Source: Planctomycetota bacterium
GTDB taxonomy: Bacteria; Planctomycetota; Planctomycetia; Pirellulales; Lacipirellulaceae
NCBI GenBank assembly: GCA_024278955.1
Contig: JAJRSE010000033.1
Location: forward strand, 1 to 64,000
DNA: 64,000 bases
Reading direction: 5' to 3'
Of the stretch, positions 9,248-39,890 are shown one piece after another. Each line of letters starts with the position of its first letter. The first letter of the stretch is position 1. The position numbers and the translations under genes were made by a program. The notes under the pieces are model-generated. The model did no database searches. It saw only the letters and a list, made by a program, of their open reading frames with translations, and was not told the origin of the DNA.

Positions 9248-9249
9248 TG

Positions 9250-10713
9250 TTATTCGCCTTTTCTTTCTGATTGCCACTCGCGTAGCCAGGGGATTGTCGA
9301 GGAGCGAACATTCATCACGTGTCGCGCCGGGCCCAGCCCCAAAACCTGACGTTGTAATCGTTCTCGGGTGGCCCAAAACTCCTCGGCCAGTTCCATTCGT
9401 TCGGGAGTCCACGACGTGTGTTGCATAATTTGGTGGTTCAGGTGGAGCATCTTTTGCTTGAACTCCAGTTGCTGTCGTCGCCAGTTGCCTGTCGGTGTTG
9501 CGGCTGGCGTTGCCGCGAGCAGCGATTGGAGTCTGTTTCCAGAGGCCACGGTGTCCACGTCGTAGGGCATCTCCCACAGGGCGATCCAGCGAGCCCACTC
9601 GTTGGAGACCTCTTCGCTCGTCCCGAAATATCGCTGGGCATATGCCGCTAGAATTTCGTTGGAAGTGGTGTACTGTTGCGAGGCCAAGCCGGCACACAAG
9701 GCCTTGTTGACATCGTCGAACAACCCTTCCGAGTAGGCCATGATACTGGTCACTCCCTGTTTCTTCAGATCTCGAATGGTTTGCTCCATACGTTCCGGGG
9801 CCGCTACCGGGCCGAGGTGTCCATACACATCGCGTGGCCCTGTTTTCCCTGCATAACCGATATGCACGAAGGCGGCGAGTGCGCAGTCCTTGGGAAGCGA
9901 GACTTCGGCCACGGCGGTTTTGTTATAGGGAATGTGCATGTAGATTCGGTCGATCCATCCAGGGGCATGTTCGTCGGCCCATGCGGCAAGCGCTTCGTGT
10001 TCCGACTTCTCCCACCACCAACCGATCATGTGTACTTCCACGCCCGGATGATGTTTTTCGCAGAGCGTGTGAATCTCTTTGCTGAGCTGAGCAAAAGTGA
10101 GAATCCAAGGATCGCATTGTTTGCAGTTACACCCTCCGTAATCGTAAGGGGCGGGGCAGATAGCCGAGAGGCGAACCCCCGATTTCGCTAAATCGGAAAA
10201 CCACCGCTCGTAGTTTTTCAGAATGATCTCGCGCCCCTCGGGAATCGAAGGACATACCAACTGCCCAAACACACTCCCTCCCATTTTTGCCCGAACCTTC
10301 GGGAGGCACTGGTCGAGAAACACATGGTTGGGCGTGAGCACCATATCGCACTTCATCCCGGCTGCTTGAGCCGACAGGAAGTTTTCTTTTTTTCTTTTCC
10401 AGATCGCATTGGCCAGTCGAAAGCCCGAATTGGCAGACGGGTCGGCACAATCGATGGTGTCGAACCAGTCGGCGTAGCGGTTGAACCCCCAATGTTTGGC
10501 CTCGTCGATCATGGCCCGCATTTCGCGCTGGCCCATCACTTCGTAACTGTTCCCAAAATGGCCAGGCGCATAAAGCACGCGATCGGAAATTTGCGGAGCG
10601 TTTGGCTCGGAAGACGTACTTTCCGTACGCACTTCTTCATTCGCCGCTGCGACCGCGGTAGCGAAGGCGAAGACCATCAACACCAGGAGTGGTGCGAGGA
10701 AAAGCGATCTCAT
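9250..10713 (-). CDS. Secreted glycoside-hydrolase-like protein
   Basis: ATG 10713 gives a signal peptide (MRSLFLAPLLVLMVFAFA then TAVAAA). The open frame to 10797 adds an implausible leader. The mature protein of about 460 aa has barrel-like strands (SGVRLSAICPAPYDYGG, HPGVEVHMIGWWW, DRIYMHIPYNK, TSIMAYSEGLFDD). It also has the cysteine pair GGCNCKQCDPW, seen in several uncharacterised glycosidase-like families of planctomycetes. An alpha-helical C-terminal part rich in Trp and Arg follows. I infer a polysaccharide-degrading enzyme of the GH20/DUF4838 type of fold, but no catalytic pair can be named. It is the first gene of the operon with the beta-helix, DUF1559 and lipoprotein genes. Confidence 0.65.
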   Translation of the reverse strand: MRSLFLAPLLVLMVFAFATAVAAANEEVRTESTSSEPNAPQISDRVLYAPGHFGNSYEVMGQREMRAMIDEAKHWGFNRYADWFDTIDCADPSANSGFRLANAIWKRKKENFLSAQAAGMKCDMVLTPNHVFLDQCLPKVRAKMGGSVFGQLVCPSIPEGREIILKNYERWFSDLAKSGVRLSAICPAPYDYGGCNCKQCDPWILTFAQLSKEIHTLCEKHHPGVEVHMIGWWWEKSEHEALAAWADEHAPGWIDRIYMHIPYNKTAVAEVSLPKDCALAAFVHIGYAGKTGPRDVYGHLGPVAAPERMEQTIRDLKKQGVTSIMAYSEGLFDDVNKALCAGLASQQYTTSNEILAAYAQRYFGTSEEVSNEWARWIALWEMPYDVDTVASGNRLQSLLAATPAATPTGNWRRQQLEFKQKMLHLNHQIMQHTSWTPERMELAEEFWATRERLQRQVLGLGPARHVMNVRSSTIPWLREWQSERKGE

Positions 10714-25163: not shown

Positions 25164-26576
25164 TCACTGGATTCCGTATTCATCTATTTTTTTCCTGAGC
25201 GTCGTGCGATGAAGTCCAAGACGACGGGCGGCCGATGCACATTGCCCGTGATGTTTTTCGAGTATGGCCTGAAACAAAGGGGGCTCGATCAGACGTAATA
25301 GTTGCTCGTATAAGTCGTCGGTTTCGTCCGCATCTGCGTGTTTAGCTTCCGCCCAGCGGGCAATCAGAGAGACAATAGATTCCTCAACGGGTGCCTTACG
25401 GTCATGGGCGTCAAGCAAGGAAGCGGCTGCGGGTTGGGGCAGATGTTCTGGTTCAATCACACCTCCGCGTGCCACGATGACTGCGTGTTCCAGAGCATTG
25501 TGCAATTCGCGGACGTTTCCGTACCACGGTCTTCGTTGCAACTCTTCAATCGCTGCCTCGGAAAGCGATGGTGACGAAGCCTTTTCTCTTCGCATTGCTT
25601 TGAGCCTCGTCCCAAGAAAGTGTTCAGCCAATTCGCCTATATCGTCACGACGCTCGCGAAGTGATGGAATATCGATGCGAAACGCGCCGAGCCGAAAGTA
25701 AAGGTCGTGGCGAAACGAACCGTCCTTTACCTTTGCCGAAAGATCTTGATGTGTAGCGGAAACTACGCGAAAAGCTGTCTTTACCGCTTGGCTTGAGCCA
25801 ACAGGAACCACTTCGCCAAGGTCCAATGCACGCAGTAGCTTTACCTGAGCACTCAGCGGGATATCGGCGACTTCGTCCAAGAACAGAGTGCCGCCATCGG
25901 CCTGAACCAACAGACCAATGCGATCCTGGTCCGCGCCGGTAAATGCCCCCCGCATATGTCCAAAAAGTTCGCTCTCGGCAAGCGACGGGCTGAGCGACGC
26001 AACGTTTACGGCCACGAATGGCCCATCGGCTCGGTGGCTATATTGATGGATGGCACGAGCAACCAATTCTTTACCCGTGCCGCTCTCACCACACAGCAAC
26101 ACACTTGCGTCCGAAGCGGCCGCTAGGGCGATGTGGTTGAACATCTCTTGCATCACCACGGACTGGCCGACGAGCGCACCTACGTGGGCACCCTGTGGCC
26201 GGCTGGGAACAGGGTGCCCACTTGCGAGCGCACGTATCAAGGCGTGTTGAACCTTTTCCAGGTCGAAGGGCTTGACGAGGTATTCAAATGCTCCGAAGCG
26301 AACCGCTTCGACAGCCGTTTTTAAGTCGCCATAGGCGGTAATGACGATAATCGGCACCTGCCCCACACGCTCGCGAAACTGGTCCATCGCTGTTAGCCCG
26401 TCCATGCCAGGCAAACGCACGTCGAGCACAATCACGTCGGGTCGCACCTCTTCGACTGCCTCCAGAGCTTGCTCAGCCGAGGAAGCTGTAACCACCTCAT
26501 GGCCAATGCTTTCCCCAAGCCGTCTTAATCCCCAGCAGATACTTTCTTCATCGTCAACTACGAGTAACTTTGACAC
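25164..26576 (-). CDS. NtrC-family sigma54-dependent response regulator
   Basis: The 470-aa protein has three domains: a receiver with phospho-acceptor Asp52 (VIVLDVRLPGMDG), an AAA+ module with Walker A GESGTGKE (163-170), the sigma54-contacting GAFTGA loop (210-215) and Walker B GTLFLDEV (229-236), and a C-terminal Fis-type HTH (GQCASAARRLGLHRTTLRKK). It should activate sigma54 promoters when phosphorylated. The start overlaps the kinase gene upstream by 19 nt. A sigma54-like promoter lies in front of the divergent operon at 28.4 kb, the most likely target. Confidence 0.93.
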   Translation of the reverse strand: MSKLLVVDDEESICWGLRRLGESIGHEVVTASSAEQALEAVEEVRPDVIVLDVRLPGMDGLTAMDQFRERVGQVPIIVITAYGDLKTAVEAVRFGAFEYLVKPFDLEKVQHALIRALASGHPVPSRPQGAHVGALVGQSVVMQEMFNHIALAAASDASVLLCGESGTGKELVARAIHQYSHRADGPFVAVNVASLSPSLAESELFGHMRGAFTGADQDRIGLLVQADGGTLFLDEVADIPLSAQVKLLRALDLGEVVPVGSSQAVKTAFRVVSATHQDLSAKVKDGSFRHDLYFRLGAFRIDIPSLRERRDDIGELAEHFLGTRLKAMRREKASSPSLSEAAIEELQRRPWYGNVRELHNALEHAVIVARGGVIEPEHLPQPAAASLLDAHDRKAPVEESIVSLIARWAEAKHADADETDDLYEQLLRLIEPPLFQAILEKHHGQCASAARRLGLHRTTLRKKIDEYGIQ

Positions 26577-28063
26577 GCTGATTCTCCACGGGGGTGTACT
26601 GGTTCTTTTTGAACCAGTAGCTCAACAGTAAAGCAAGTCGTGTTGTCACGGCGACACCATCGTATTTCGCCGCCATGCTGTTCGACGATTTCCCGCGCGA
26701 CCGACAAGCCTAGGCCGGTTCCCTCGGGCTTATCCGTGGCAAAGGGCTCGAACAGTTTTTCTTGCATGCAACAAGAGGGCCCTGCTCCTGAGTCTATCAC
26801 TTCTAGTACAACCCGGCCATGGTTGTGCTGGCCAAGCTGAATGGCCACCGTTGCTTGTCCCGTGAGAGGTAACGATTCTCCACCGCATCGAGAAGCTGCT
26901 TCAATCGCATTGAGCAGCAGGTTCATCAACATTTGCTCCAAGGCGTCGTAATCGCCAAGTATGTCGCCAAGTGTTGTGAATGCATTGGCAGGCCGGTTCC
27001 ACTCGATTTTAACATGAAGATGGCGTGCGATCGGTTGCAGCAGCGGCAGGATGTTTTCAATCAGCGTGGTAAGATCGACTGTTGCCATGGGCTTCGTGCT
27101 CGGTTTTCCAAGCGACAGAAAACGCTTCAGTTGTTTTTCCATGAGGGTTATCTGCCGATTGGCAACATCCAGACAGTCGCAAGCGTCATTACAATCGTTA
27201 TCGGACGGGCACTCGCGTTGATGCAGCTCAATGGCAAGCCGGCACCCGGTTGCCGAGTTGCGCATCTGGTGCGCGATGCCGCTGCCAAGTTGCCCTAGCG
27301 TACGAAGCCGCTCACTCCGCCGCACTTCGTCTTCGTAACGACTCAATAACTCCGCCATGCGACTGATCGAGACGCTTAAATCCCGAACTTCGTCGTCGAG
27401 AGGTGGTAACTCAATGCGACGAAAATCGCCCTCAGCAATCTGCCCGACTAAGCTTTGGAGCCGAAGCATTGGGCGCACGACTCGTGACGCAATCGCGGCT
27501 GCAAACGCGACCACGAGCAGAAGGGCAACCGCTCCGATCACCAGAGGGGGGTAGACCGCCTGTCGCCACACTTCGCGGTAATTTTTCTCTGGATAGAGGA
27601 TGTGAAGTCGAACGGTTTGTTCCCGTGCGTTAGGGCGCCATAGTTGAATAGCAGTGTGAAAATACCACTGGCCGCCAACGTCGATGGATTCGCCAAGGGT
27701 CAGCTTTTCAGTTGGCGAAGGTTGAGCTTGTAGAGGAGATGGGTTTACAAAAGACGAATTTGCAAAAGAAGGGGCCTCGGCACTCAAAGTCGACGCAATC
27801 TTTTCTCCAGAGCGGTTGGCCTCGGAATCGTTGACTAAGATGAACTCCGCCCCAGTGAGTCCGCTCATCTGACGTAGGATTGTGCTGGTCAGAGGGAAGC
27901 TGGACTCTAACAGAGTGCCCGTTACCTCCTGCAACTGATTCTCTATCTGTTGCTTCACCCTGCGGCCAGAGAGATACGCATTCAGCGTGCTAACGCCAAC
28001 GAGCGCAGCAAGCATTACGCCGATCATCGGCAGCATAATTTGGTTTCGAAGCGGCCATCGCAT
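26558..28063 (-). CDS. NtrB-like membrane sensor histidine kinase with cysteine cluster
   Basis: The 501-aa protein has a transmembrane helix (about 10-31), a sensor domain outside the membrane (about 32-170), a second helix (about 171-193), a HAMP-like segment, the H-box with His265 (SGIAHQMRN) and an ATPase domain (NLLLNAIEAA, EGTGLGLSVAREIVEQHGG). Between the two DHp helices lie Cys274, 285, 291, 295 and 297 (ECPSDNDCNDACDC). One Cys there is common in related kinases; a cluster is unusual and could bind metal or sense redox. It phosphorylates the regulator encoded next. The divergent operon starts 323 bp away. Confidence 0.9.
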   Translation of the reverse strand: MRWPLRNQIMLPMIGVMLAALVGVSTLNAYLSGRRVKQQIENQLQEVTGTLLESSFPLTSTILRQMSGLTGAEFILVNDSEANRSGEKIASTLSAEAPSFANSSFVNPSPLQAQPSPTEKLTLGESIDVGGQWYFHTAIQLWRPNAREQTVRLHILYPEKNYREVWRQAVYPPLVIGAVALLLVVAFAAAIASRVVRPMLRLQSLVGQIAEGDFRRIELPPLDDEVRDLSVSISRMAELLSRYEDEVRRSERLRTLGQLGSGIAHQMRNSATGCRLAIELHQRECPSDNDCNDACDCLDVANRQITLMEKQLKRFLSLGKPSTKPMATVDLTTLIENILPLLQPIARHLHVKIEWNRPANAFTTLGDILGDYDALEQMLMNLLLNAIEAASRCGGESLPLTGQATVAIQLGQHNHGRVVLEVIDSGAGPSCCMQEKLFEPFATDKPEGTGLGLSVAREIVEQHGGEIRWCRRDNTTCFTVELLVQKEPVHPRGESACQSYS

Positions 28064-28307: not shown

Positions 28308-28323
28308 CGGTATGCCATTTGCT
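28308..28323 (+). promoter_or_regulatory. Candidate sigma54 (-24/-12) promoter
   Basis: CGGTATGCCATTTGCT has GG (28309-28310) and GC (28321-28322) exactly 10 nt apart and an intact TTGCT. It matches the YTGGCACGN4TTGCW pattern apart from the C's of GGCAC. Transcription would begin near 28335, about 50 nt before the lipoprotein gene, whose GGAGG is at about 28371. The divergent sigma54 activator gene supports it. Confidence 0.5.
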
Positions 28324-28386: not shown

Positions 28387-28662
28387 ATGCGAAACGCTCG
28401 TTTTTTTGGGTCTGTCCGTCCAGTCCTCGCAGTGGCCCTACCCGCAATGTGCTTGTTGTCTACAGGTTGCGGTGAAAAGGCACCGGAGTTGGATACGACA
28501 ACAGTGACCAGTCCCGTGGGACGCCCGAGCGTCTGTGAACACTGCGAGAAGAAAATCGAAAGCGTTACCAGGGAACACCTCACCACCGTTCGCGGAAATC
28601 AGCATACGGTCTGCGACGAAAAGTGTGTGACTGGTTTGAAAGAATGGCTCGCCAAGCAGTAG
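28387..28662 (+). CDS. Small Cys-rich lipoprotein
   Basis: The start is ATG 28387 with GGAGG upstream. The 91-aa precursor has a basic leader and hydrophobic core, then the lipobox LSTGC (Cys28), so it is membrane-anchored. The mature part carries CEHC (50-53) and CDEKC (76-80) with His52 and His73 nearby. This spacing looks like a zinc-ribbon or metal/haem ligand set. It is the first gene of the operon with DUF1559, CobN-like, ExbB-like and DUF2149 genes. I infer a metal or haem carrier or sensor. The family is not one I can name. Confidence 0.75.
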   Translation: MRNARFFGSVRPVLAVALPAMCLLSTGCGEKAPELDTTTVTSPVGRPSVCEHCEKKIESVTREHLTTVRGNQHTVCDEKCVTGLKEWLAKQ

Positions 28663-28703
28663 TAATAGCTCCCCCCTTCCCCGCCACAAAGGAAAATCTC
28701 CCC

Positions 28704-29663
28704 GTGAAAAGACAGGATGGTTTCACTCTCGTAGAATTATTGGTCGTGATTGCGATTATTGGCGTTTTGGTCTCGCTGTTGCTGCCAGCAGTGCAGGCGG
28801 CCAGAGCTGCGGCAAGACGGACCCAATGTACGAATAACTTCAAACAGCTTGGCATCGCGCTTCACAACTTTCACGATTCGAGAAAATCGTTTCCGCCAGG
28901 GCACATGGATACGGGAACTATCGGCCCGGCTTATCGACACCAAGTGGGCTGGTTGACATACTTGCTGCCGTATGTCGAACAAACGGCCGTAGATAGTTTG
29001 GTCGACCTCACTCAGATCGGTCCCAGCAACGACAGCCCGAATCCTAACGGATCGGTGACCAACAATCCTGCATTTCACGCAGCTGGAGGGGTCGGGATCA
29101 GCAGTTACGTTTGCCCCAGTGATCCGATCGGTCGAGTGGATGAGGTCTGGGCACCCACAAACTACCTGGGAAATCAAGGGCCCCTTTGCAGGTGCCGCGG
29201 GAAAGATTGCGTCGGAATTTTTGGGCACGATACCTGGATGCGATTTCGGGAGATCACCGACGGCACCTCAAACACCATCGCTGTCGGCGAGACACTGAAG
29301 GGCGATCTCGATGTAAACACCCTGCAAGACAACTACTTTTATCGACCCTCTGGAGGAAACGCTCAAGACATCGACACTTGTCAGGGCGGGACTCTCAGTA
29401 GGTCCGATCGCGCCACCGTTTGGCTCGGCGGAAACCCCCAACACAACATGTTCAGCACTGATCGTGCGCCGAACGACGGACGGTTCGACTGCATTGCCCC
29501 AAACAATGGTTGTGTCAACTTCGCTGCACGTAGCGCCCACGCTGGTGGGGTGAATATCGGGATGTGCGATGCCTCGGTCCAATTCATTACCGACAGTATC
29601 GACGTTGCCGTTATGCAGGCTTTGGGCACTCGAAACGGCGAGGAGATCGTCGGTGAATTTTGA
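28704..29663 (+). CDS. DUF1559 protein with prepilin-type signal
   Basis: GTG 28704 is preferred: AAGGA lies 10 nt upstream and it gives the short basic leader MKRQDG before FTLVELLVVIAIIGVLVSL. An ATG at 28644 would overlap the lipoprotein gene and give an odd leader. The 319-aa protein has the DUF1559 core (AVQAARAAARRTQCTNNFKQ) and end (SAHAGGVNIGMCDASVQFITDSID). Its stop overlaps the CobN-like start by 11 nt, so translation is coupled. A pseudopilin-like protein inside a chelatase operon is unexpected and may be structural or a cell-surface partner. Confidence 0.88.
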   Translation: MKRQDGFTLVELLVVIAIIGVLVSLLLPAVQAARAAARRTQCTNNFKQLGIALHNFHDSRKSFPPGHMDTGTIGPAYRHQVGWLTYLLPYVEQTAVDSLVDLTQIGPSNDSPNPNGSVTNNPAFHAAGGVGISSYVCPSDPIGRVDEVWAPTNYLGNQGPLCRCRGKDCVGIFGHDTWMRFREITDGTSNTIAVGETLKGDLDVNTLQDNYFYRPSGGNAQDIDTCQGGTLSRSDRATVWLGGNPQHNMFSTDRAPNDGRFDCIAPNNGCVNFAARSAHAGGVNIGMCDASVQFITDSIDVAVMQALGTRNGEEIVGEF

Positions 29664-32600
29664 TCCTGGGAGCCAGCACAACATTGTCGGTCAAGAAAAT
29701 CGCGCTAAAGGGAAAAATAGAATTGCTCGGTGGGCTGTTGGATTGGCGATGTGCTGCGCTCTGAGTCAGGCAGCGAAGGGACAGACCGCTCCCAAACCGC
29801 AAGAGCTGGAACCTGTCTTGGAAAGCCAATCGACGGATAGCACCAATGCTTCTAGTCGAGATAAAATTGCTTTTGTAGGCCTTCACGGCGGTCTCTTCAA
29901 GGGCTTCAAGCGTTTTGAAACCGAGGTAGGACTACAAATTGATTATCTCACCGACGAGCAACTTTCAAAGGAGCAAGTCGATCTTGCCGTGTATCGGCTC
30001 GTTTTTCTACAACATCTCCGCGCGGAAGATCGCGAGCAATACCGCCGACTGATCGCCTCGGCCAGGAAACGCAATCCCACTCTTCGGATTTTTTCGATTT
30101 CAGGGTTGGCCGAGCGACATCTACCCAAGCTGACCAAGCAGGGGGTTATCGAAAACGATTCCAAACTGACGGCGTATTACGGATCGTCGCCGGAAAATCT
30201 CAAACGGTTTTTGATTTACGCAAACGTAACGTACCTAAAACGCTTGGGCAACATCTTGCCTCCGGTAGAGAGTAAACAAGTTAGCGGATTGTTTCATCCT
30301 GACCACGAGGGCTTGTTCGAGAACTCTGGACAGTTTTTGCGCTGGGCACGTGACCAGGGACGCAAGACCGAGGACGCTGCGCGAGTCGTCATCGCCGTAC
30401 ACTCGACACACCTCCTCTTTCAACAGCCCAAAGTTATTGAGGCATTGATCCGCGCATTTGAGAAGCAAGGTGTGCTCGCGGTCGCGATGATCGATCTTGG
30501 CCCCGGCTACCAGCAGAGCGTACTGGAATTCAAACCGCTGGCGATCATTCATACCTGTCACAGCCGCGAGAGAGTGTCGTTTCGGGAGAAGGCCGGCGTC
30601 CCGCATTTGCATTCGATTTTCTTCCGCAAGCAATCGATCGACGAGTGGCAGAATAATTTGCTGGGAATTTCGTCTAGCGAAATGGCCTTTCATATCGTCG
30701 GCCAGGAACTACGCGGGGCGATCGAACCGCAAATCGGCTCGGGTACGCTAACCGGAGGCGGAAGCTCCGAAGCTTTTACGCCAATTCCCGAACGAATTGA
30801 GCACTTGGTCAGCCGAACGGTCGCGTGGATGAAGCTGGCTCGCACTCCGAACAGCAAAAAGAAAATTGCCATGGTCTATTACGATCGCGAAATGGGCAAG
30901 GCGGAGCTGATGCGCGGCAGTGCGACTGGCATGTTCATGAATGGCCCACGAAGTCTGGTGAAAGTGCTGAGCCAGATGCAAAAGGCGAGTTACTCGATGG
31001 CTCGCGTGCCGGCTGACGAAGACGAATTGGTCGGCTGGATGATGCGTCGCGGTCGGCAAATAGGCATATGGGCACCGGGCGTATTGGACCGACTCGCCCG
31101 TAGCGGCAATGCCGTTTTGATTCCGGAAGAGACCTACAGGAAGTGGTTCGAAACAAAAGTCCCTGAAAAGCAACGTGAATCGCTCATCCAGCGATGGGGC
31201 CCACCGCCAGGGAAATTTCTTGTCTGGGAAAACGACAAGGATAAATTCATTGTGATTCCCCGTATCGACCTAGGGAATGTGATTCTCTTGCCTCAGCCGT
31301 TGCGTGGCGAGGCGCACGATACGTCTCTGGTGCATGACAAACTCGTTCCGCCGCCGCATAATTATCTGGCGACCTACTTTTGGTTGCAGGAAGAGTTTGG
31401 AGCCGATGCCATGGTCCACTTCGGCACGCACGGCACCGAGTTCATGCTGCCAGGTAAAGCAGCGGGCCTCTCTCGCGCCGATTGGCCTGACATCGCGATG
31501 GGAACCATGCCCAACATCAATCCATGGATCATCAACAATCTGGGCGAGTCGTCGCCGGCTCGACGGCGGGCGTATGCCGTGCTGATCGATCATCTCGTCC
31601 CGCCGTCGGTCAACGCCGAACTTTCCGACGAACTACTGAATCTGCATAACGACATCGACAAATGGGTTGTGCTAGAACCTGGCGCGCTCAGGAAAAAGTT
31701 TCGGGAGTCGATTACCAAACAGTTTCAGGCAGAGGGGCTGGGACAGGATCTTCACCTCAACCTAGCTGATGGGCGATTGTTGACGCCGCAGGAAGTCGAA
31801 CAACTCTTGGAATACTTGCACGATATCCACAACGAGACGACACCCGTAAGCTTGCACGTGTTTGGAGAGCCGCCGCGAGACGATTTACTGGTTCCCTGGA
31901 TTGTTACCTGCCTTCGCAAACAGTTTCGCGACGGACTGGGAGAAGTCCTCGAAGTTCCGCCAGAAGAGGCGCTCAACCCTGGCGATCGGCAGAAATACCT
32001 GCGGCGAAAAGCTGAAGAGATCGTCACACTGGTTCTTCGGCAAGGATTCAGCGCCGAAGACGCTCTTCAATCCCTCGGCGGAAATCTCCCCCCCGAGGGA
32101 CTGCCTGAACCGGTGCAAAAAGGGGTCGAATTGGCCCACTGTCTAAAAGAAAATTTTGCTCAGACGCACAACGAAGTCGACAACCTACTGGCCGCACTCG
32201 ACGGAAAGTTTATCCCCCCAGGACCAGGCAACAGTCCCGACCGCAACCCGGCAGTTGTTCCTACTGGCCGCAATATGGTGGTCATGAATCCTGAGGAAGT
32301 TCCTACGCGGCCGTCGTGGGAAATCGGCAAGCAACTCGTCGATCAACTGCTTGCTGGGCAATTGAAAGCAAACGGCCATTATCCCAGAAAAGTCGCGTTC
32401 ACGCTAAATTCCTTTGCCACGTTTCAGGATTACGGCGTGATGGAATCGCAGATTTTGTATCTGATGGGTGTCCGCCCGGTATGGGACGAACGGAATTTGG
32501 TGGCGGATCTGGAATTGATCTCAGCAGCCGAACTTGGGCGACCTCGGATTGACGTCTTCATTTCGTCGCTCGGATATTACCGCGACATGCTGCCGACCCG

Positions 32601-33819
32601 CATGAGGCTGCTGGATAAAGCAGTCCGCTTGGTCGCGGAACACCAGGAAGAGCACAACCTTGTCTACGAAAACAGTCGACGCGTTAAAGAGGAGCTAGAG
32701 AAACAAGGCATCGCCCCTCAGAAGGCGGCGACTCTATCGCAGGCACGCATCTTCGGCGGCCCGCCGGGGCAGTTTGGCAGCGCGGGGTACTATTATCTCG
32801 TTGAAAAATCGGGCGAATGGGATAGCCGCGAAGAGTTGATGGGCACCTACCTCAGTTTCGCTCGGCATGTCTACACCGAAGGCCTCTGGGGAGAAGACGC
32901 ACCAGAAACCTACAACCGTCACATCCAGGGAACCGACGTACTGCTGCGAAGCTGGTCGGACCGCACCCGCAGCCCGCTCTCCAACAAATACACTTGGTAC
33001 AAAGGAGGTAGCCTGTCGCTGGCAATCAAGCATCTCACGGGCAAGGAGCCCGAGTGGTTTCTTTCGGACGTCCGAGACCCCGACCGCGCATCGATGGTCC
33101 GAGCGGAAGACGCCTTGCGCAAGGACTACCGCGTGCGGCTGTTCAACCGCAAGTGGATCGAAGGCATGATGAAGGAAGGCTATGCAGGGGCCGATCAAGT
33201 TGCCGTCCACGTCTCGAATACAATGGGTTGGAAAATTATGCGCGAGGGCAGCGTCTCGGACGACATCTGGGAAGAGATCGTCGATATTTTCATTCGTGAC
33301 AAGCGGAACCTCAACATCCGCGATTGGTTCGAGGCTGAAAATCCGTTTGCCTTTCAGGAGGTTACTGAAATTTTGCTAGAAACGGTTCGCAAAGGATACT
33401 GGGAACCAAGCGAGTTGATGCTCCGCGAAATTACGACCGAATACGCCCGTTCGGTTGCACGCCACGGCGAAGGGGGCGGACTACGCGGCGGTGGCAACAA
33501 GAAGCTGGAAGCCTTCCTCGAAAAAGTCCTCAGCGCCCCGGGCAGTCGGGAGCTGGATACACTACTGGCCCAATTCCAAGAAAGAGGACTTGAGTCGTCG
33601 ACACCCGAGCCGCCTACTCCCGCCGAGGCTAAAACTAAAATCATCGAAACCAAGCCGACCGAAGAAATCGAGGGACGCCAGCTAGTCCCCAAGTCGACCT
33701 CACAAAATCATTCAGAAGATTCGGAAGCTTGGCACCTTCTCGGAATCGCAATAGCCACCGGATGTCTCGTTCTGATTTTACTCGGGTATCGCTTCCGCCG
33801 AGGCGTACCGCGTCAATAG
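29653..33819 (+). CDS. CobN-like chelatase with signal peptide and C-terminal anchor (HmuS-like)
   Basis: GTG 29653 is chosen because AGGAG (29641-29645) lies 7 nt upstream. The frame is open to 29569 but overlaps DUF1559. The 1388-aa protein has a predicted signal (RWAVGLAMCCALSQAAKG, about 25-43), then the CobN/magnesium-chelatase H-subunit fold over about 60-1300: PPPHNYLATYFWLQ, DAMVHFGTHGTEFMLPGK, MGTMPNINPWIINNLGE, GYYRDMLPTRMRLLDKAVRL and RIFGGPPGQFGSAGYYYLV. A helix (about 1360-1378) ends it. CobN inserts cobalt into cobyrinate in the cytosol, but no cobS/cobT or cobalamin genes are here. Export signal, anchor and the ExbB-like/DUF2149 neighbours instead match HmuS of haem operons, which has been implicated in removing iron from haem. 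Substrate remains inferred. Confidence 0.85.
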   Translation: MNFDPGSQHNIVGQENRAKGKNRIARWAVGLAMCCALSQAAKGQTAPKPQELEPVLESQSTDSTNASSRDKIAFVGLHGGLFKGFKRFETEVGLQIDYLTDEQLSKEQVDLAVYRLVFLQHLRAEDREQYRRLIASARKRNPTLRIFSISGLAERHLPKLTKQGVIENDSKLTAYYGSSPENLKRFLIYANVTYLKRLGNILPPVESKQVSGLFHPDHEGLFENSGQFLRWARDQGRKTEDAARVVIAVHSTHLLFQQPKVIEALIRAFEKQGVLAVAMIDLGPGYQQSVLEFKPLAIIHTCHSRERVSFREKAGVPHLHSIFFRKQSIDEWQNNLLGISSSEMAFHIVGQELRGAIEPQIGSGTLTGGGSSEAFTPIPERIEHLVSRTVAWMKLARTPNSKKKIAMVYYDREMGKAELMRGSATGMFMNGPRSLVKVLSQMQKASYSMARVPADEDELVGWMMRRGRQIGIWAPGVLDRLARSGNAVLIPEETYRKWFETKVPEKQRESLIQRWGPPPGKFLVWENDKDKFIVIPRIDLGNVILLPQPLRGEAHDTSLVHDKLVPPPHNYLATYFWLQEEFGADAMVHFGTHGTEFMLPGKAAGLSRADWPDIAMGTMPNINPWIINNLGESSPARRRAYAVLIDHLVPPSVNAELSDELLNLHNDIDKWVVLEPGALRKKFRESITKQFQAEGLGQDLHLNLADGRLLTPQEVEQLLEYLHDIHNETTPVSLHVFGEPPRDDLLVPWIVTCLRKQFRDGLGEVLEVPPEEALNPGDRQKYLRRKAEEIVTLVLRQGFSAEDALQSLGGNLPPEGLPEPVQKGVELAHCLKENFAQTHNEVDNLLAALDGKFIPPGPGNSPDRNPAVVPTGRNMVVMNPEEVPTRPSWEIGKQLVDQLLAGQLKANGHYPRKVAFTLNSFATFQDYGVMESQILYLMGVRPVWDERNLVADLELISAAELGRPRIDVFISSLGYYRDMLPTRMRLLDKAVRLVAEHQEEHNLVYENSRRVKEELEKQGIAPQKAATLSQARIFGGPPGQFGSAGYYYLVEKSGEWDSREELMGTYLSFARHVYTEGLWGEDAPETYNRHIQGTDVLLRSWSDRTRSPLSNKYTWYKGGSLSLAIKHLTGKEPEWFLSDVRDPDRASMVRAEDALRKDYRVRLFNRKWIEGMMKEGYAGADQVAVHVSNTMGWKIMREGSVSDDIWEEIVDIFIRDKRNLNIRDWFEAENPFAFQEVTEILLETVRKGYWEPSELMLREITTEYARSVARHGEGGGLRGGGNKKLEAFLEKVLSAPGSRELDTLLAQFQERGLESSTPEPPTPAEAKTKIIETKPTEEIEGRQLVPKSTSQNHSEDSEAWHLLGIAIATGCLVLILLGYRFRRGVPRQ

Positions 33820-33871
33820 CCGATACGACAGAGCCCTCAGCACAGGCCAACACCACAGAAATGGTACTCCA

Positions 33872-34522
33872 ATGGGTTCACTCGTTGAAATCCTCTTCTT
33901 TCTTTCGACCGCGCTGTTGGTTCCAGTTATCGGCGTGCTGCTGGTGTTTGTGGCGTGGGTACTACTAGAGATCGGCGGGTTCGTGAGCGAAGCACGAGAG
34001 CGACACCAACAGAATTCAGCTTGGCAATCTTTCTTGAAGGAGCTTCACGACCGGCCCAATCTGCCCTGTCAATCAGCGGCAACAACATTTTTCCAGCACA
34101 ACGTCTATTCGGGACTACTGGGTTCTTTCTCCGCACGAGGACGCGAAATCTGTGGCAGCGAGTTGCATTTGAGCAAGCTGGTTTCGGATTTGGAGGTCGA
34201 AGCTGCCGGTCGGTTGGCGCGGATGAGCCTCGGTGTGCGTATCGGACCGATGCTGGGGCTGATGGGAACCCTCATTCCGCTAGGCCCTGCTCTGATTGGC
34301 CTCTCGACAGGAAACATCGAAGATATGGCCCAACACCTCGTCGTTGCGTTTAGTACAACGGTGTTGGGGTTATTTGTGGGTGGAGTGTGCTACGGCCTCT
34401 GGCTAACCCGTCGGCAGTGGTATGCCCGTGATTTGGCCCACATCGAACACATTACCCAGTGTTTGTACGCAGCAGAAGGAGAACAGACCCATGCCTCGGG
34501 CAACTCGCAACCACAACACTAA
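33872..34522 (+). CDS. MotA/TolQ/ExbB-type proton channel (HmuT-like)
   Basis: The 216-aa protein has three hydrophobic helices (about 5-33, 120-142 and 155-178). The last two carry the family pattern VRIGPMLGLMGTLIPLGPAL and AFSTTVLGLFVGGVCYGL. Such channels couple the proton gradient to work across the envelope. A cytosolic segment follows helix 1, and a polar tail ends it. It lies 52 bp after the CobN-like gene and overlaps the DUF2149 gene by 32 nt, so the three are one transcript. Order and family match hmuT. Confidence 0.85.
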   Translation: MGSLVEILFFLSTALLVPVIGVLLVFVAWVLLEIGGFVSEARERHQQNSAWQSFLKELHDRPNLPCQSAATTFFQHNVYSGLLGSFSARGREICGSELHLSKLVSDLEVEAAGRLARMSLGVRIGPMLGLMGTLIPLGPALIGLSTGNIEDMAQHLVVAFSTTVLGLFVGGVCYGLWLTRRQWYARDLAHIEHITQCLYAAEGEQTHASGNSQPQH

Positions 34523-34865
34523 TCTCTCCGCGCATCGGCGCTTGCTTGCTAGCCACGACGACGACCCGCTCGCCAGCGTCGCCAATCTGTTCGACGTGGC
34601 GATGGTCTTCGCCGTCGCGCTGCTGCTGGCGCTGGTCACGCACTTTCAGCTACCGGAAATGCTTCAATTGCCAGAACTCCTCTCCGGGCATCAAGAGACC
34701 ACCATCCTGAAGAATCCGGGAACGGCGAACATGGAAATTATCCACCGTAAAGGCAAGAAACTGGAACACTACCGAATGACCAAGCAGACCTTGGGCGGCG
34801 AAGGAGAAAAACTCGGCACGGCGTATCGCCTCAAGACGGGAGAAGTGGTGTATGTACCCGAGTAA
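34491..34865 (+). CDS. DUF2149 membrane protein (HmuU-like)
   Basis: ATG 34491 follows AGAAGGAGAA. The 124-aa protein has the DUF2149 signature DDDPLASVANLFDVAMVFAV with one membrane helix (about 30-48) and a soluble C-terminal part ending GEVVYVPE. The layout (one helix near the N-terminus, periplasmic C-domain) resembles ExbD/TolR-like partners of proton channels. DUF2149 genes are repeatedly found beside CobN-like and ExbB-like genes in archaea and bacteria. It is the last gene of the operon. Confidence 0.82.
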   Translation: MPRATRNHNTNLSAHRRLLASHDDDPLASVANLFDVAMVFAVALLLALVTHFQLPEMLQLPELLSGHQETTILKNPGTANMEIIHRKGKKLEHYRMTKQTLGGEGEKLGTAYRLKTGEVVYVPE

Positions 34866-35063
34866 CGGTTCACGTTCAACCCGCGTCGGCCAATTCAATT
34901 GATATTCACGACCAGCAGCCCGCTTACTCAATTCACCGGTCAATACTCACCGTTCAACTTTTGGATGAAGCTTTCGGGAGGGACAGCTGCCCAAATTAAT
35001 GCGAGCACTATTGATAGGCGTTATCTTGCAAGTAGGAATCGTCTCATGGTATCATCGTGCTAA

Positions 35064-35095
35064 CAGACTTTGCGTCGGGCAGACTTTGCGTCGGG
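35064..35095 (+). repeat. Tandem 16-bp repeat in the leader of the DMFase-like gene
   Basis: CAGACTTTGCGTCGGG occurs twice back to back (35064-35079, 35080-35095), about 75 bp before the start codon. It may be a slippage product or a leader element. Confidence 0.7.
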
Positions 35096-35169
35096 GCCGC
35101 AGGAAGGCCAGCTGGAGAAAATTCGGGACAAATGACCACTGCTCGCGTACTCGAAGGAATAACCCACCA

Positions 35170-36657
35170 ATGGCTTCAAAACCGCTGACCCGTCGTTCGT
35201 TGTTAAGGGGTGCTATTGCCGGCTCTCTGGCCATGCCCTCGTTGGCTGCCGCTATCCCTGCCCGAGCAGGTGTGATCGCCAAGGAGAATGAACTCCCCGG
35301 CACACATGAGTGGCAACTCTCGAATACGCAGATCGATCCGGCCACTCGCTACCGTTGCCCGTGGATCGAAGGCTACTGCTCGCATAACAGTATCCATGCT
35401 GGAGAGACGCTGCAGTTCTTTGTGAGCACGAATCCTGCTTCGTCATTTACGCTCGAAATTTTTCGCCTCGGTTACTATGGCGGGAAGGGCGGCCGGCTGA
35501 TGAAGCAAATCGGTCCGCTCCCTTCCAAGACGATGCCTGATCCAAAAGTCGGCCCCAAACGTCTCCGCAACTGTCGCTGGCAGCCAAGTGTGGAATTGAC
35601 CATTCCCGACAATTGGCTGAGCGGCGTCTACGTTGGCAAACTTACCGCCCAAAACGAGGGGTTGCAAAGCTATGTCATTTTTATCGTTCGGGACGATCGT
35701 CAGGCCGATTTGCTGTTTCAGTGCAGCGATAACACTTGGCAAGCATACAACCGCTGGCCTTCCCAATTTTCTTTGTACGATGATGGCAAGAACCCGTGGT
35801 ACTGGGGTTCGGACGTGCAGGTCAGCTTTAACCGCCCTTATGGCAAGTACTGCCAGATCATGGATCAGCCCCTCTCAATTGGTTCAGGCGATTTTTTCTT
35901 GTGGGAGTTCCCTTTTGTCTATTGGCTGGAATCCCAAGGTTACGACGTCAGCTATATCTCCAACTTGGATACGCACCGCGATCCAGCAGGCCTCAGGCGG
36001 GCACGCGGATTCTTAAGTGTGGGGCATGACGAGTACTGGACTATCGAAATGTTCCGCAACCTCCAGAAAGCGATCGCGGATGGCGTCAATGTCGGGTTTT
36101 TCTCCGGAAACGCGGTTTATGGTCGGATTAAATACGATCCCGAGGTGCGTGGCTTTGAGCGGGTTGGTGTTTTCGGACCACCGGGGGGCACACAAGAATT
36201 CGCTTCCATGTCGACTTTGCCCCACCAGCGACCCTATGCCAACGAACTGATTGGTGCCCACAGTACGGGGCCTGTCACGGGCGGGGCCGACTGGATCTGT
36301 GTCGAGCCAGATCACTGGATCTATCAGCAAACCGGCATGAAAAAAGGGGATACGATTCCAGGAATTATAGGCTGGGAATGGCATGGCGACCCCGCGCCGA
36401 AAGAGGGTCTGCAGATCGTGGCAACAGGACCAACACAAAGCGGCCCTGGTAAGCCGAACGGCGGGCAATATACGGCCACCGTTTATCCGGGGCCCAAAGA
36501 TAACTTTGTCTTCAACGCGGCGACATGCTGGTGGGCCGACGGACTGAGCGAACCGCCCGGTTACATCCGGCCCAAAGTCTATACGAACCCCCAAGGTCCG
36601 AACCCTCAAATCCAACAGATCACACGCAATATTCTCGATCGCATGATCGATCGTTAG
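35170..36657 (+). CDS. Tat-exported N,N-dimethylformamidase large-subunit-like protein
   Basis: ATG 35170 gives 495 aa beginning MASKPLTRRSLLRGAIAG, a twin-arginine signal; an upstream start at 34999 would bury it. The body has the pattern of the DMFase beta-subunit family: EGYCSHNSIHAGETLQFFVS, IFRLGYYGGKGGRLM, DNTWQAYNRWP, and FLSVGHDEYWTIEMFRNL. DMFase hydrolyses dimethylformamide with a small alpha subunit, and none is encoded nearby. Most family members are uncharacterised. Tat export implies a folded, perhaps metal-containing enzyme outside the cytosol. It starts about 300 bp after DUF2149 and is probably separate from that operon. Confidence 0.78.
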   Translation: MASKPLTRRSLLRGAIAGSLAMPSLAAAIPARAGVIAKENELPGTHEWQLSNTQIDPATRYRCPWIEGYCSHNSIHAGETLQFFVSTNPASSFTLEIFRLGYYGGKGGRLMKQIGPLPSKTMPDPKVGPKRLRNCRWQPSVELTIPDNWLSGVYVGKLTAQNEGLQSYVIFIVRDDRQADLLFQCSDNTWQAYNRWPSQFSLYDDGKNPWYWGSDVQVSFNRPYGKYCQIMDQPLSIGSGDFFLWEFPFVYWLESQGYDVSYISNLDTHRDPAGLRRARGFLSVGHDEYWTIEMFRNLQKAIADGVNVGFFSGNAVYGRIKYDPEVRGFERVGVFGPPGGTQEFASMSTLPHQRPYANELIGAHSTGPVTGGADWICVEPDHWIYQQTGMKKGDTIPGIIGWEWHGDPAPKEGLQIVATGPTQSGPGKPNGGQYTATVYPGPKDNFVFNAATCWWADGLSEPPGYIRPKVYTNPQGPNPQIQQITRNILDRMIDR

Positions 36658-36713: not shown

Positions 36714-39700
36714 CTATCGCAATGTTTGCAAATAGGCTAGCAAGTCGGCCAGTTCATTCTCGGTCATAGATTGGTCCAAACCGTTAGGCATGATGGAGGT
36801 GTCGCTGGGGACCATTTCTTCGATCTCCTGTCGTAAGATACGGAGTTCTTGTTGATCTGAAGTACGCATGTGAATTGCGTCGCTGGATTGCCGAACAATC
36901 ATACCGGTATGAGCCTTACCGCTGTCTGTAACGACCGTCATTGATTCGAAGCCTCGCACGATCGAGACGCTCGGGTAGAGAATTGCCTCAGCTAAGTCGC
37001 GACTCGATCGTCGCTGGCCAACTTGCGTGAGATCGGGGCCAACCAACCCCCCTTCGTTTCCAATGCGATGGCAAACATAACAACTCGTCCGGCGGCTGAA
37101 AAAGACCTTCTTCCCGAGTTTAGCCTGGCCCTTGGTCGCGCGATGTTCTAGTTTCGCAATTCGCTTTGCTTGTGCCTCACGGTTGGGATGCAACTTGCTG
37201 ATCAGCGCGGCGGCTGCTTGCTGGACTTCAGGAGAGAACGATTTGAACAGCAATGAGATTTGGTTTGCTCCTACATTGGACCGACCAGGCGATGCCATGA
37301 GCGATTGCAATAATTTCTCGCCGAGTTGGGTATCGTTTACCTCTTCGAACGAGGCGAGAAGAGGTGCTAGTTCGAGAGGGCCTACTTCGGCAATCAATTC
37401 GAGAACTCGAAGCAATTGCGGTCGTGTAAGTTTTGCCTTCCCAATCGCCCTTGCTGCCGTGAGTCGTTGGATTGGTTCCCCGTTTCGGAGCTGGACGGTC
37501 AAGAGAGCTAGCAATGCATCTTCAAGCGGACACCTCATTGGTAGAACAGACATGGCTTGGACTCGAATATCCGTGGGGCGCGTGGTATCTCGAGCAAGTA
37601 ATAAAAGCGGTTCTCGTAGTCGGTCGTTGCCTTCGACGCCGAGGATTGCCACAGCTTGTCGTACCACGGAGTCGTCCTTATCGACTAGGCATTGGGCTAC
37701 TGCTTTGGACCAGGTAGTCGGAAGGGACTTCAATCCGGTTCGGCCGATTGACTCAAGAACGAGCCGTTTCGTTGCTGGATCAAAAGCATTGCTTACTAAG
37801 ACACCGACGACACGGTGCCGGATTTTATCGTTATCGCTAAACGCAATAATTGCTCCCGCGAAGAGGGAGCGACCTTCCTCGTCGAGCGGCCGAGTAAGTA
37901 AGTCGTTGAGGATTTCATCAACATCGCTTGCCCAGTCTGGATGCTTGGTGACAACTCGTAGTGCTGCAGAACTCAGTTCAAAATCATCGGAGTGCAGCAA
38001 CGGAAGCACCTGCTCTCGAAGAATCGGGTAGCCAGGCATTTGGTCGAGAGCAATTAAAGCACTACGACGAACCTGGGGGCTGACGTCTGAAAGAGCATGC
38101 GTCAATTCTTGGGGAGCTTCGATTTCGATTAGTGCATAGATCAATGCATGCTCAAGAACCCGATCAAGATCTGTACGGAGGGCCGCTAACAAGGAGGGTA
38201 TGGCCGCAGCATCGCCAATCTGCCCTAACGCTGTAGCGGCTTGACGTCGGATAGGCAGCGAGTCTGATTCCACGAGTTGACAGAGCTTCTCGACAGCCGC
38301 TCGGTCGCGATTTATTCCACATGCGTAAACGGCTGCATTGCGTACCGATTCAGATACCTCCGAGAGCGCCTGTCGAAGAATTTTCTGGGCTGACGGAGAA
38401 CCGATGCGTGCGAGTGCCCAAACAGCACGTCTAGTAACTTCATCCTCTTTACGGGCGTTGTTCAAAACTGTTTCCGTTAGCGCCGGTATTGCTTCTTCGC
38501 CGCGAGTCACCAATTCTCCGAGTGCTCGCTTTTGAACGACAAAACGGCTGTCCGCGAGTAGCTTGATGAGATCTTCGGGGGAAGCGTTAGCCCAGTTGAT
38601 GGCATTGCCCCAAGGGTCGTCTGGTCTTGCGGCGTCCGTGCGGCGGATGCGGTAGATGGTTCCCAACCTTTCTGGATGTGCGACCTGAGACGTGGGACAT
38701 CCGAGGAGGAACCAACCTCCCGTATCAACGACGAGGAGGCTGCCATCAGCATCTTCCAGAATATCGGTCGGATGGAAGTAGGTGTTTTCCGAGACAAGGA
38801 ATTTTTCTACTTGAGCTTGAAAGGTCGATCCGACTCGATCCAACTGCACGCGATCCACGCGATGGGAGTTGAAGTGGACAGCAAACCAGTTGTCGCGAAA
38901 GTCGTCGCCAAAACCGCCACTACGATATCTTGTTACACCGGAGACCCCCACATGGCCAAAATTGTGGACTTCTGGTAAGAAATCCCCGGTCTTGGGAAAC
39001 TCGTCCGTGTATTTTTCCAGGTTGAATTTTGGATAGACGCCGCCGTGCATCCAATGGACTAGGCAGTCGCCCCGTTGGCTGTACATGAGATTGACCGTGC
39101 CAAGCATTTCGCCTTCGGAAGTAAAATCAACCTCGACGGGGTTGTCCATCCCCCCGCCACAGTGGACTCGAACATCGCTTCCATCTGGCTTGCAGGAGAA
39201 AATACGGGCCGCCTTGCCTTGCTCTGTAACGCCTCCGTCTTTGTCTTGAAGTTTGTATCCATGACGACCATCGCACCAATAGATACGCCCTGCGGGGCCA
39301 AGAAAACAACCGTGGATACTTGCTGCATTTCCGGTGTAACCAAATTGACCGACGAGCTGGTCACGCCGGTCGGCAACCCCATCGCCATCGGTATCTTCGA
39401 GTCGCCAGATAAACGGCGGTGAGGCGGCATAGATAGCGCCATTGTGCCATAGAACACCTTGTGGCAACGTAAGTTCGTCGGCAAAAACCATGCTCTTGTC
39501 GTAATGGCCATCGCCATTGGTATCTTCAAGAATCCGGATTGAACCAGGCAGTTTTTCTTCAAGGGCCTTGCGTTTCAGGTTTTCTCCACCGCTCTCGGCA
39601 ACAAAAAGCCGACCCGTATCGTCAAAGCAAGCCATTGTTGGATGCGAGACATGAGGAGGCTTCGCAACGACCTCGATAATAAACCCCTCGGGAACTGTCG

Positions 39701-39890
39701 GCATGGCCGAAGTGGAGGAGCCATCGCTCGGCGTGATCGGCTCGGTGGCCGAGACAGCAACGACGCTGTAGGCAATTAGCAACACTGCCATTGGTGATGT
39801 TCTTCGAAGACAAAACGCAAACCGACAACTGGCTGATAATTGTGCGATTACGTGACCGTGAAACCACAAAAACATTCTACTGAACCTCAT
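36714..39890 (-). CDS. PVC-type haem-binding protein: beta-propeller dehydrogenase-like, HEAT repeats, cytochrome c
   Basis: The protein (up to 1058 aa) has a signal region near MAVLLIAYSVVAVSA, so the start may be 39890 or ATG 39791. An N-terminal beta-propeller (about 60-440) carries FDDTGRLFVAESGG, DTNGDGHYDKSMVFADEL and GTIYRIRRTDA. HEAT-like repeats follow (about 450-900). A C-terminal cytochrome c domain has the haem site CYVCH, VGPDLTQVGQRRS and a late Met (SIMPNGL). This architecture is specific to the Planctomycetes-Verrucomicrobia-Chlamydiae group and is thought to oxidise sugars or other substrates in the periplasm. It is convergent with the DMFase-like gene, with 56 bp between stops. 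Confidence 0.92.
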   Translation of the reverse strand: MRFSRMFLWFHGHVIAQLSASCRFAFCLRRTSPMAVLLIAYSVVAVSATEPITPSDGSSTSAMPTVPEGFIIEVVAKPPHVSHPTMACFDDTGRLFVAESGGENLKRKALEEKLPGSIRILEDTNGDGHYDKSMVFADELTLPQGVLWHNGAIYAASPPFIWRLEDTDGDGVADRRDQLVGQFGYTGNAASIHGCFLGPAGRIYWCDGRHGYKLQDKDGGVTEQGKAARIFSCKPDGSDVRVHCGGGMDNPVEVDFTSEGEMLGTVNLMYSQRGDCLVHWMHGGVYPKFNLEKYTDEFPKTGDFLPEVHNFGHVGVSGVTRYRSGGFGDDFRDNWFAVHFNSHRVDRVQLDRVGSTFQAQVEKFLVSENTYFHPTDILEDADGSLLVVDTGGWFLLGCPTSQVAHPERLGTIYRIRRTDAARPDDPWGNAINWANASPEDLIKLLADSRFVVQKRALGELVTRGEEAIPALTETVLNNARKEDEVTRRAVWALARIGSPSAQKILRQALSEVSESVRNAAVYACGINRDRAAVEKLCQLVESDSLPIRRQAATALGQIGDAAAIPSLLAALRTDLDRVLEHALIYALIEIEAPQELTHALSDVSPQVRRSALIALDQMPGYPILREQVLPLLHSDDFELSSAALRVVTKHPDWASDVDEILNDLLTRPLDEEGRSLFAGAIIAFSDNDKIRHRVVGVLVSNAFDPATKRLVLESIGRTGLKSLPTTWSKAVAQCLVDKDDSVVRQAVAILGVEGNDRLREPLLLLARDTTRPTDIRVQAMSVLPMRCPLEDALLALLTVQLRNGEPIQRLTAARAIGKAKLTRPQLLRVLELIAEVGPLELAPLLASFEEVNDTQLGEKLLQSLMASPGRSNVGANQISLLFKSFSPEVQQAAAALISKLHPNREAQAKRIAKLEHRATKGQAKLGKKVFFSRRTSCYVCHRIGNEGGLVGPDLTQVGQRRSSRDLAEAILYPSVSIVRGFESMTVVTDSGKAHTGMIVRQSSDAIHMRTSDQQELRILRQEIEEMVPSDTSIMPNGLDQSMTENELADLLAYLQTLR

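Follow-up and report, generated by a model that had tools for sequence, protein, structure and literature searches.

A planctomycete gene cluster joining an exported CobN-superfamily protein to an ExbB-DUF2149 pair and a cysteine-rich lipoprotein: a possible proton-driven metal (de)chelation machine

The window considered here is a 64,000 nucleotide stretch from a Planctomycetota bacterium of the family Lacipirellulaceae (assembly GCA_024278955.1, contig JAJRSE010000033.1, positions 1 to 64,000), and at 28387-34865 on its + strand lies a cluster of five genes that is the subject of this report. The first encodes a 91-amino-acid lipoprotein (28387..28662) with a lipobox cysteine and a C-x2-C-x22-C-x3-C domain, putatively a TRASH/YHS-like treble clef and predicted to bind metal, and after a gap of 41 bp there is a gene for a 319-amino-acid DUF1559 pseudopilin-like protein (28704..29663, GTG start; PF07596, E 5e-53, N_methyl and H-X9-DG). 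Overlapping the latter by 11 bp is the gene for an exported CobN-superfamily protein of 1388 amino acids (29653..33819, GTG start; PF02514, 949 bits, CobN-Mg_chel E 5.7e-285) that ends in a transmembrane helix. A further 52 bp downstream begins a MotA/TolQ/ExbB family proton-channel subunit of the HmuU type (33872..34522; PF01618, 32.6 bits against a cut-off of 22.9, MotA_ExbB E 7.8e-8), overlapped by 32 bp by an ExbD-like DUF2149 protein of the HmuV type (34491..34865; PF09919, 110.6 bits against a cut-off of 27.1, E 4.9e-32). Gene starts were picked by eye from reading frame and ribosome-binding sites. The cluster is real: coordinates and Pfam matches bear out the five same-strand genes with tight spacing or overlaps described in the initial annotation. 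Its description of the CobN-like protein as exported and anchored is secure at one end of the molecule, where a helix stands out plainly at the C-terminus (17-residue hydropathy 2.63), and less so at the other, where by hydropathy the window protein has only a weak signal peptide (1.59; 18 of 25 sequences of its group, group A below, reach 1.9).

At 93% completeness, the source genome spans 4.6 Mb in 146 contigs. It has one gene of the CobN superfamily, and its two TonB-receptor plug domains are each encoded on a contig other than that of the cluster. It has 44 DUF1559 matches, roughly one per 100 kb, so adjacency of a DUF1559 gene at one locus is weak evidence and it is conserved adjacency across loci that carries weight.

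The wider setting was explored with 98 CobN-superfamily open reading frames longer than 2.9 kb, comprising relatives from named genomes (the best 80 of 578), 17 chosen plasmid records out of 159 with a match, and further loci from genomes of the same order and phylum; L197, L198 and L201, apparently duplicates of the L077, L081 and L086 records, do not add to the counts. Signal peptides and C-terminal segments were judged by hydropathy with thresholds of our own setting, and TonB-receptor, ExbB, DUF2149, DUF1559, lipoprotein and AAA/VWA genes were found by home-made profiles or single queries built from few seeds. ExbB and/or DUF2149 genes lie within 6 kb of 66 of the 98, and 64 of these 66 stator-linked frames encode a hydrophobic C-terminal segment, the exceptions being L085 and the frameshifted L091. 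AAA/VWA genes are near eight, none of which has the segment, and no frame is near both kinds of partner. The 24 with neither include nine, some of them at contig ends, that have the segment. In 392 Planctomycetota genomes DUF2149 was found in 43 and a CobN-superfamily gene in 49, with both in 38; there are 45 DUF2149 places (two fragments of one match, in G273, being counted as one), of which eight have no CobN on their contig; for the other 37, CobN is on the same contig and never more than 4.6 kb away. Two gammaproteobacterial BB4 loci (L128 and L148) have the CobN-like protein split over two consecutive open reading frames.

DUF2149 itself has a single predicted transmembrane helix with a conserved aspartate followed by a small beta-rich domain. 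Asp-35 is present in at least 90% of 53 sequences and in 45 of 45 in another set, and the predicted structure, of low overall confidence (pLDDT 74.7, pTM 0.33), has a helix at 26-51 and then strands. The pair that DUF2149 forms with ExbB accompanies the CobN gene with or without a receptor. In Trichlorobacter, where the CobN-like copy is near bzaF, it coexists with an ExbB-ExbD-TonB set, and in a Lentisphaerae locus (L110) separate ExbD and TonB genes are beside it.

A tree of 92 of the 98 sequences (L080, L091, L121b, L014, L084 and L116, which are truncated, frameshifted or duplicate, were left out) was built by a quick method and midpoint rooted, with letter make-up uneven in many rows. Groups A to D had been named from the domain V motif before being checked on the tree, and so it was not blind to them. 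A branch with support of 100 parts 70 exported sequences from 22 cytosolic ones of CobN/BchH type. Among the exported sequences there are clades for the HmuS type (26 sequences, support 100), group D (6, support 98) and group A, which is mostly planctomycete (23 including the window protein, support 100); group B (15 sequences) has support of only 48, and A and B are joined with support of 100. Topology tests reject a position for the window protein within the HmuS group (p-AU 7e-64), a single clade of group A with the HmuS group (p-AU 4e-8) and placement of the window protein with the cytosolic CobN/BchH sequences (p-AU 1e-45). Phylogeny against HmuS, CobN and BchH had been proposed in the initial annotation, with clustering among cytosolic CobN as the outcome that would tell against its reading, and that outcome is what the last test dismisses. 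Another genome from this genus, G009, has a protein (L015) with the HmuS motif and a place in the HmuS group, which makes HmuS-type and group A proteins distinct types, and in ten other genomes of the order with a CobN-like protein of group A strength that protein is 51-83% identical to the one in the window. On sequence grounds group A is a lineage of its own and not a copy of the gut-bacterial heme-iron system.

The active site is conserved in part. Residue numbers are those given for HmuS (PMC12583661), transferred through an alignment with 9d26, and the residue table, from which L080, L091, L121b, L014 and L084 were left out, has 23 full-length group A sequences. All 23 retain His-506, His-534, His-538, Glu-577 and His-254; the window has HFGTHG, matching the HFG(T/A)HG motif that contains His-538, and His-538 and Glu-577 are features of the superfamily. 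Where HmuS has LSLDHxxEFMGG, with His-1209 and Glu-1212, the window has LSNKYTWYKGG. Positions 1208, 1209 and 1212 are Asp, His and Glu in 27 of 27 HmuS-type sequences, whereas in group A they are Lys, Arg or Gln, then Tyr (23 of 23), then mostly Tyr or Leu; an alignment shifted by one residue would put Lys, Arg or Gln at 1209. Trp-1202 is replaced by Arg, Thr or Ser in group A. Met-79 survives in one of 23, the window protein having Leu, and the position is directly preceded by His in all 23, though in the HmuS group itself only 12 of 27 have the methionine. The methionine-rich insertion of HmuS was not found in the HFGTHG-PTGRN interval of the window protein, which has three methionines in 278 amino acids, keeping in mind that some HmuS-group sequences are likewise methionine-poor.

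Group A also has a His/Cys set of its own. Seven positions, compared across groups A, B and the HmuS type and numbered as in the 1388-amino-acid protein (His-78, His-121, His-250, His-253, His-300, Cys-302 and His-318), are kept in 22 or 23 of 23 group A sequences and in none of 27 HmuS-type ones; in group B His-250 occurs in 20% and His-318 in 7%, with none of the other five. As His-121 aligns with the residue preceding HmuS Met-79 and the neighboring His-303 corresponds to HmuS His-254, the seven are probably set around the cleft that accommodates the site 1 heme in HmuS.

The two genes at the start of the cluster are parts that the initial annotation had set down as additions to described hmu loci, and related genomes link both of them to the CobN-like gene. 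With a limit of E 0.1 no Pfam family matched the lipoprotein, whose C-x2-C-x22-C-x3-C motif may be compared with the C-x(19-22)-C-x3-C that defines TRASH; metal binding is likely. Of the 396 genomes surveyed in the order, 11 have a CobN of group A strength; clear matches to the lipoprotein were found in 9 of these and in none of the 385 others. The neighborhood search for DUF1559 plus cysteine-rich lipoprotein that had been suggested finds both upstream of CobN in 17 group A loci (in L012 the pair is divergent from it), with DUF1559 alone in five (L010, L011, L085, L089 and L094). In a further eight the place of the pair is taken by a secreted protein of about 630 amino acids with a repeated aromatic motif, noted by eye (L078, L082, L092 and L112), or a homolog (L088, L097, L106 and, on the opposite strand, L107); the four copies scanned, those of L078, L082, L092 and L112, matched no Pfam model at E 0.01 or better. 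L080 and L114 end before this slot. As loci with the ~630-amino-acid protein fall in two distinct places within group A on the tree, the occupant of the slot has apparently been exchanged on more than one occasion.

The window DUF1559 protein shares 47-69% identity with its operon counterparts at 12 further loci of Pirellulales type (13 rows, L084 duplicating L011), as against 34-40% for five other DUF1559 proteins of its own genome. With the copies in L085, L089 and L094 identity is only 29-38%, the L094 match being weak (97 bits), so the link there rests on position. Several operon copies have an extra C-x-C-R motif with a third cysteine nearby, lost in others.

Regulation may involve sigma-54. 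A candidate -24/-12 promoter at 28308..28323 (+ strand) matches 8 of 12 consensus positions, a weak score equalled by 21% of shuffles and so not significant alone. Across loci, scores of at least 9 of 12 occur in 16 of 21 group A loci (13 of 17 and 3 of 4) versus 4 of 44 group B-D regions (Fisher p 1e-7); the regions scored end at the assumed gene starts, with candidate sites 52 to 289 bp upstream of these, and L084 was left out. Divergent from the cluster is a sensor histidine kinase gene (26558..28063, - strand; HATPase_c, HAMP), and on the same strand as the kinase an NtrC-family sigma-54-dependent response regulator (25164..26576; Sigma54_activat E 3.9e-64). Such an NtrC-type pair is next to the cluster here and also at L081 and L199, and there is a kinase fragment in L096.

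Elsewhere in the window, just downstream of the cluster, is a gene for a DMFA2_C-domain protein with a twin-arginine-like N-terminus (34999-36657). The gene at 36714-39890 encodes a protein that combines DUF7133 and HEAT repeats with a cytochrome c domain at its C-terminus. A restriction-modification pair at 53296-55835 consists of an Eco57I-type DNA methylase and, after it, a BsuBI/PstI-type restriction endonuclease, and a NosD-like protein of the right-handed beta-helix kind, bearing a PEP-CTERM signal (7247-9697), is encoded beside a DUF1559 gene (6203-7192).

It is about an even chance that the cluster specifies an inner-membrane, periplasm-facing and proton-driven machine for metal (de)chelation, probably serving metal acquisition. 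The group A CobN-like protein would bind a metal-tetrapyrrole or similar metal chelate, and the metal would be moved out of it (or, less likely, in) at the His-538/Glu-577 site of the superfamily. ExbB and the ExbD-like DUF2149 would act as a proton-driven stator, doing for it the conformational work that AAA+/VWA ATPases do for cytosolic CobN and ChlH. The four-cysteine lipoprotein and the group-specific histidines and cysteine of the head/neck region may hand the metal on, and DUF1559, or elsewhere the secreted ~630-amino-acid protein, may stand in for a TonB receptor in substrate delivery. The substrate, metal and direction in group A are likewise matters of inference, but since acquisition of metal across the envelope is common to HmuS, PA1922-PA1925 of Pseudomonas aeruginosa and the Runella and Trichlorobacter copies, demetallation for metal uptake is favored. 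A wider and bolder generalization, possible though rather doubtful, is that exported members of the CobN superfamily are proton-motive-force-driven (de)chelatases in which ExbB-DUF2149 replaces the AAA+ motor, group A being a metal-selective, probably non-heme, branch with a head/neck His/Cys site, a four-cysteine carrier, and a pseudopilin or secreted protein in place of the TonB receptor.

Several points weigh against such a machine. Loss of His-1209 and Glu-1212 could mean that catalysis has been lost. The published role of HmuU and HmuV is to power the outer-membrane receptor (PMC10100974; PMC12583661), though in the accounts consulted it is assigned by analogy. Recombinant HmuS converts heme in a published assay with no reported HmuU/V requirement seen (PMC12583661), so proton coupling may be dispensable for catalysis. 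A permissive search found no ExbB or DUF2149 in the flank searched of L082, a member of group A, or of L115, L117, L119, L120 and L154 (mainly one side for L115 and L120). The N-terminal hydropathy test separates poorly: 57 of the 66 stator-linked frames pass it, but so do 3 of the 8 linked to AAA/VWA genes. Two of the 11 genomes in the order with a group A-strength CobN lack the lipoprotein, and absences in that survey, those among the 385 other genomes included, are incomplete, with at most 15 lipoprotein and 2 CobN candidates scored per genome.

Were the cluster to perform true HmuS-type removal of heme iron, with the chemistry of Bacteroides HmuS in a planctomycete setting, it would fit that the closest solved chain to the window protein is HmuS 9d26 (473 bits, with M. 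tuberculosis CobN at 389), that His-538, Glu-577, His-506 and His-254 are universal in group A and that one group A locus (L011) has FeoB. This is unlikely, however, given the rejected placement in the HmuS clade, the changes at Asp-1208, His-1209, Glu-1212 and Trp-1202 and, in 22 of 23, at Met-79, the absence of neighboring HmuY, HmuR and HmuT and of the methionine-rich insertion, and the distinct HmuS-group protein of G009. ExbB and ExbD normally serve TonB, and with two TonB-receptor plugs elsewhere in the genome the ExbB-DUF2149 pair might power an outer-membrane or pseudopilus step, through a distant receptor or DUF1559, and not the CobN-like protein at all. The published HmuU/V assignment (PMC10100974) would agree, but no TonB receptor was found with our profiles near the 25 group A loci (neighbor tallies include the duplicate L084 and truncated L080), Trichlorobacter and L110 have ExbD and TonB of their own beside the pair, and its company with the CobN gene is regardless of a receptor, so that such a division of labor is quite improbable.

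That the direction is insertion, with metal from the lipoprotein and His/Cys site loaded into an exported tetrapyrrole, would be in keeping with the AAA+-powered relatives CobN and ChlH, which insert metals (PMC12583661), and the lipoprotein could be the donor. The characterized exported relative removes metal (PMC12583661), though, no tetrapyrrole-modifying gene is recognized among the five genes and their direct neighbors, and CbiC was not found in the genome at its 93% completeness; insertion is thus a slim prospect. Slimmer again is that of a catalytically dead protein for binding or sensing, a metal buffer or a sensor coupled to the two-component system, to which the loss of the second active-site histidine, the new His/Cys residues and the NtrC-type genes next door in the window and at two other loci (L081 and L199) would lend themselves. 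Against it are the invariance of His-538 and Glu-577, the 51-83% identity across genomes, retention of ExbB and/or DUF2149 in 24 of 25 group A loci, and the presence of two-component homologs beside only a few of them. With regard to the proton-driven machine, a clade that keeps its stator without a nearby TonB receptor, together with the partner pattern, makes proton-driven extracytoplasmic metal removal directly testable; if true, this machinery is widened from heme iron to other metals, and a planctomycete DUF1559 protein gains a defined genetic partner.

In the best-ranked and mostly non-subscription literature no published description was found of the planctomycete cluster or of a stator-for-ATPase exchange in the superfamily, of which HmuS was characterized in 2025 and most remaining sequences are described as not reliably annotatable (PMC12583661). 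Cytosolic CobN-CobS-CobT and ChlH-ChlI-ChlD belong to the same superfamily as the window protein but lack its C-terminal hydrophobic segment, and AAA/VWA genes are beside 8 of 21 sequences of the cytosolic CobN type; in the source genome no ChlI/D-type partner scores above cut-off (best TIGR02442, 32.6 bits against 779), a search that did not include CobS/CobT models. Group B, from Verrucomicrobia, Lentisphaerae, other Planctomycetes and one gammaproteobacterial metagenome-assembled genome, is joined with group A and shares the CobN-ExbB-DUF2149 order, but differs in having a TonB receptor nearby in 12 of 16 cases, mostly LSNHHxYEYLGG, and both His-1209 and Glu-1212 in 15 of 15.

PA1922-PA1925 of P. 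aeruginosa, with CobN-like, ExbB/D-type and DUF2149 members, is in the Zur regulon (PMC9431628, PMC8456098, PMC11761036). It and a Runella cluster resemble that of the window in combining these three components, in a context of metal starvation or nickel enzymes, but both have a TonB receptor, the likeness of PA1923 being one of gene content and not of alignment. The Runella cluster (L158, R. slithyformis plasmid pRUNSL01) has TonB receptor, urease-accessory-like, ExbB, DUF2149 and CobN-like genes inside a hyp cluster, the CobN-like copy lying between hypF and hypC-hypD-hypE beside a gene annotated as urease accessory protein, which suggests a nickel version; its protein is in group D and, unlike group A, has Asp at the His-1209 position. 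Five loci from Thermoguttaceae and an uncultured planctomycete (L130, L131, L132, L136 and L143) are in the HmuS clade with the order DUF1559-ExbB-DUF2149-CobN; they lack His-254, and neither HmuT nor a TonB receptor was found near them.

The closest parallel is with the hmuYRSTUV operon of Porphyromonas gingivalis and Prevotella intermedia, which encodes in order HmuY, a TonB receptor, a CobN-like protein, a hypothetical protein, ExbB and DUF2149 (PMC10434189), an order also found on a Bacteroides finegoldii plasmid. The hmuS-hmuT-hmuU order that the initial annotation saw in the window is wrong, as the published fourth gene is the hypothetical HmuT with ExbB fifth and DUF2149 sixth; the window thus has S-U-V without T, ExbB being HmuU and DUF2149 being HmuV, already published as an ExbD homolog (PMC10100974). 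Nor does its HmuSTU identity stand: the CobN-like protein is in a separate clade, without the LSLDHxxEFMGG motif of domain V, Met-79, the methionine-rich insertion or adjacent HmuY, HmuR and HmuT (no HmuT was found near any of the 25 group A loci), though, in line with the annotation, neither a TonB receptor nor HmuY was found beside the CobN-like gene. To the HmuS-HmuU-HmuV pattern it adds the four-cysteine lipoprotein, DUF1559 and the seven His/Cys positions. HmuS strips heme of its iron, leaving protoporphyrin IX and Fe(II), and loses this activity with the H538A mutation (PMC12583661). What the window cluster shares with HmuS-HmuU-HmuV of Bacteroides and Porphyromonas, and what remains of the proposed kinship of an exported chelatase system with hmu operons, is a membrane-anchored, exported CobN-superfamily protein with a C-terminal anchor, ExbB and DUF2149 in the same operon, and His-538, Glu-577 and His-254.

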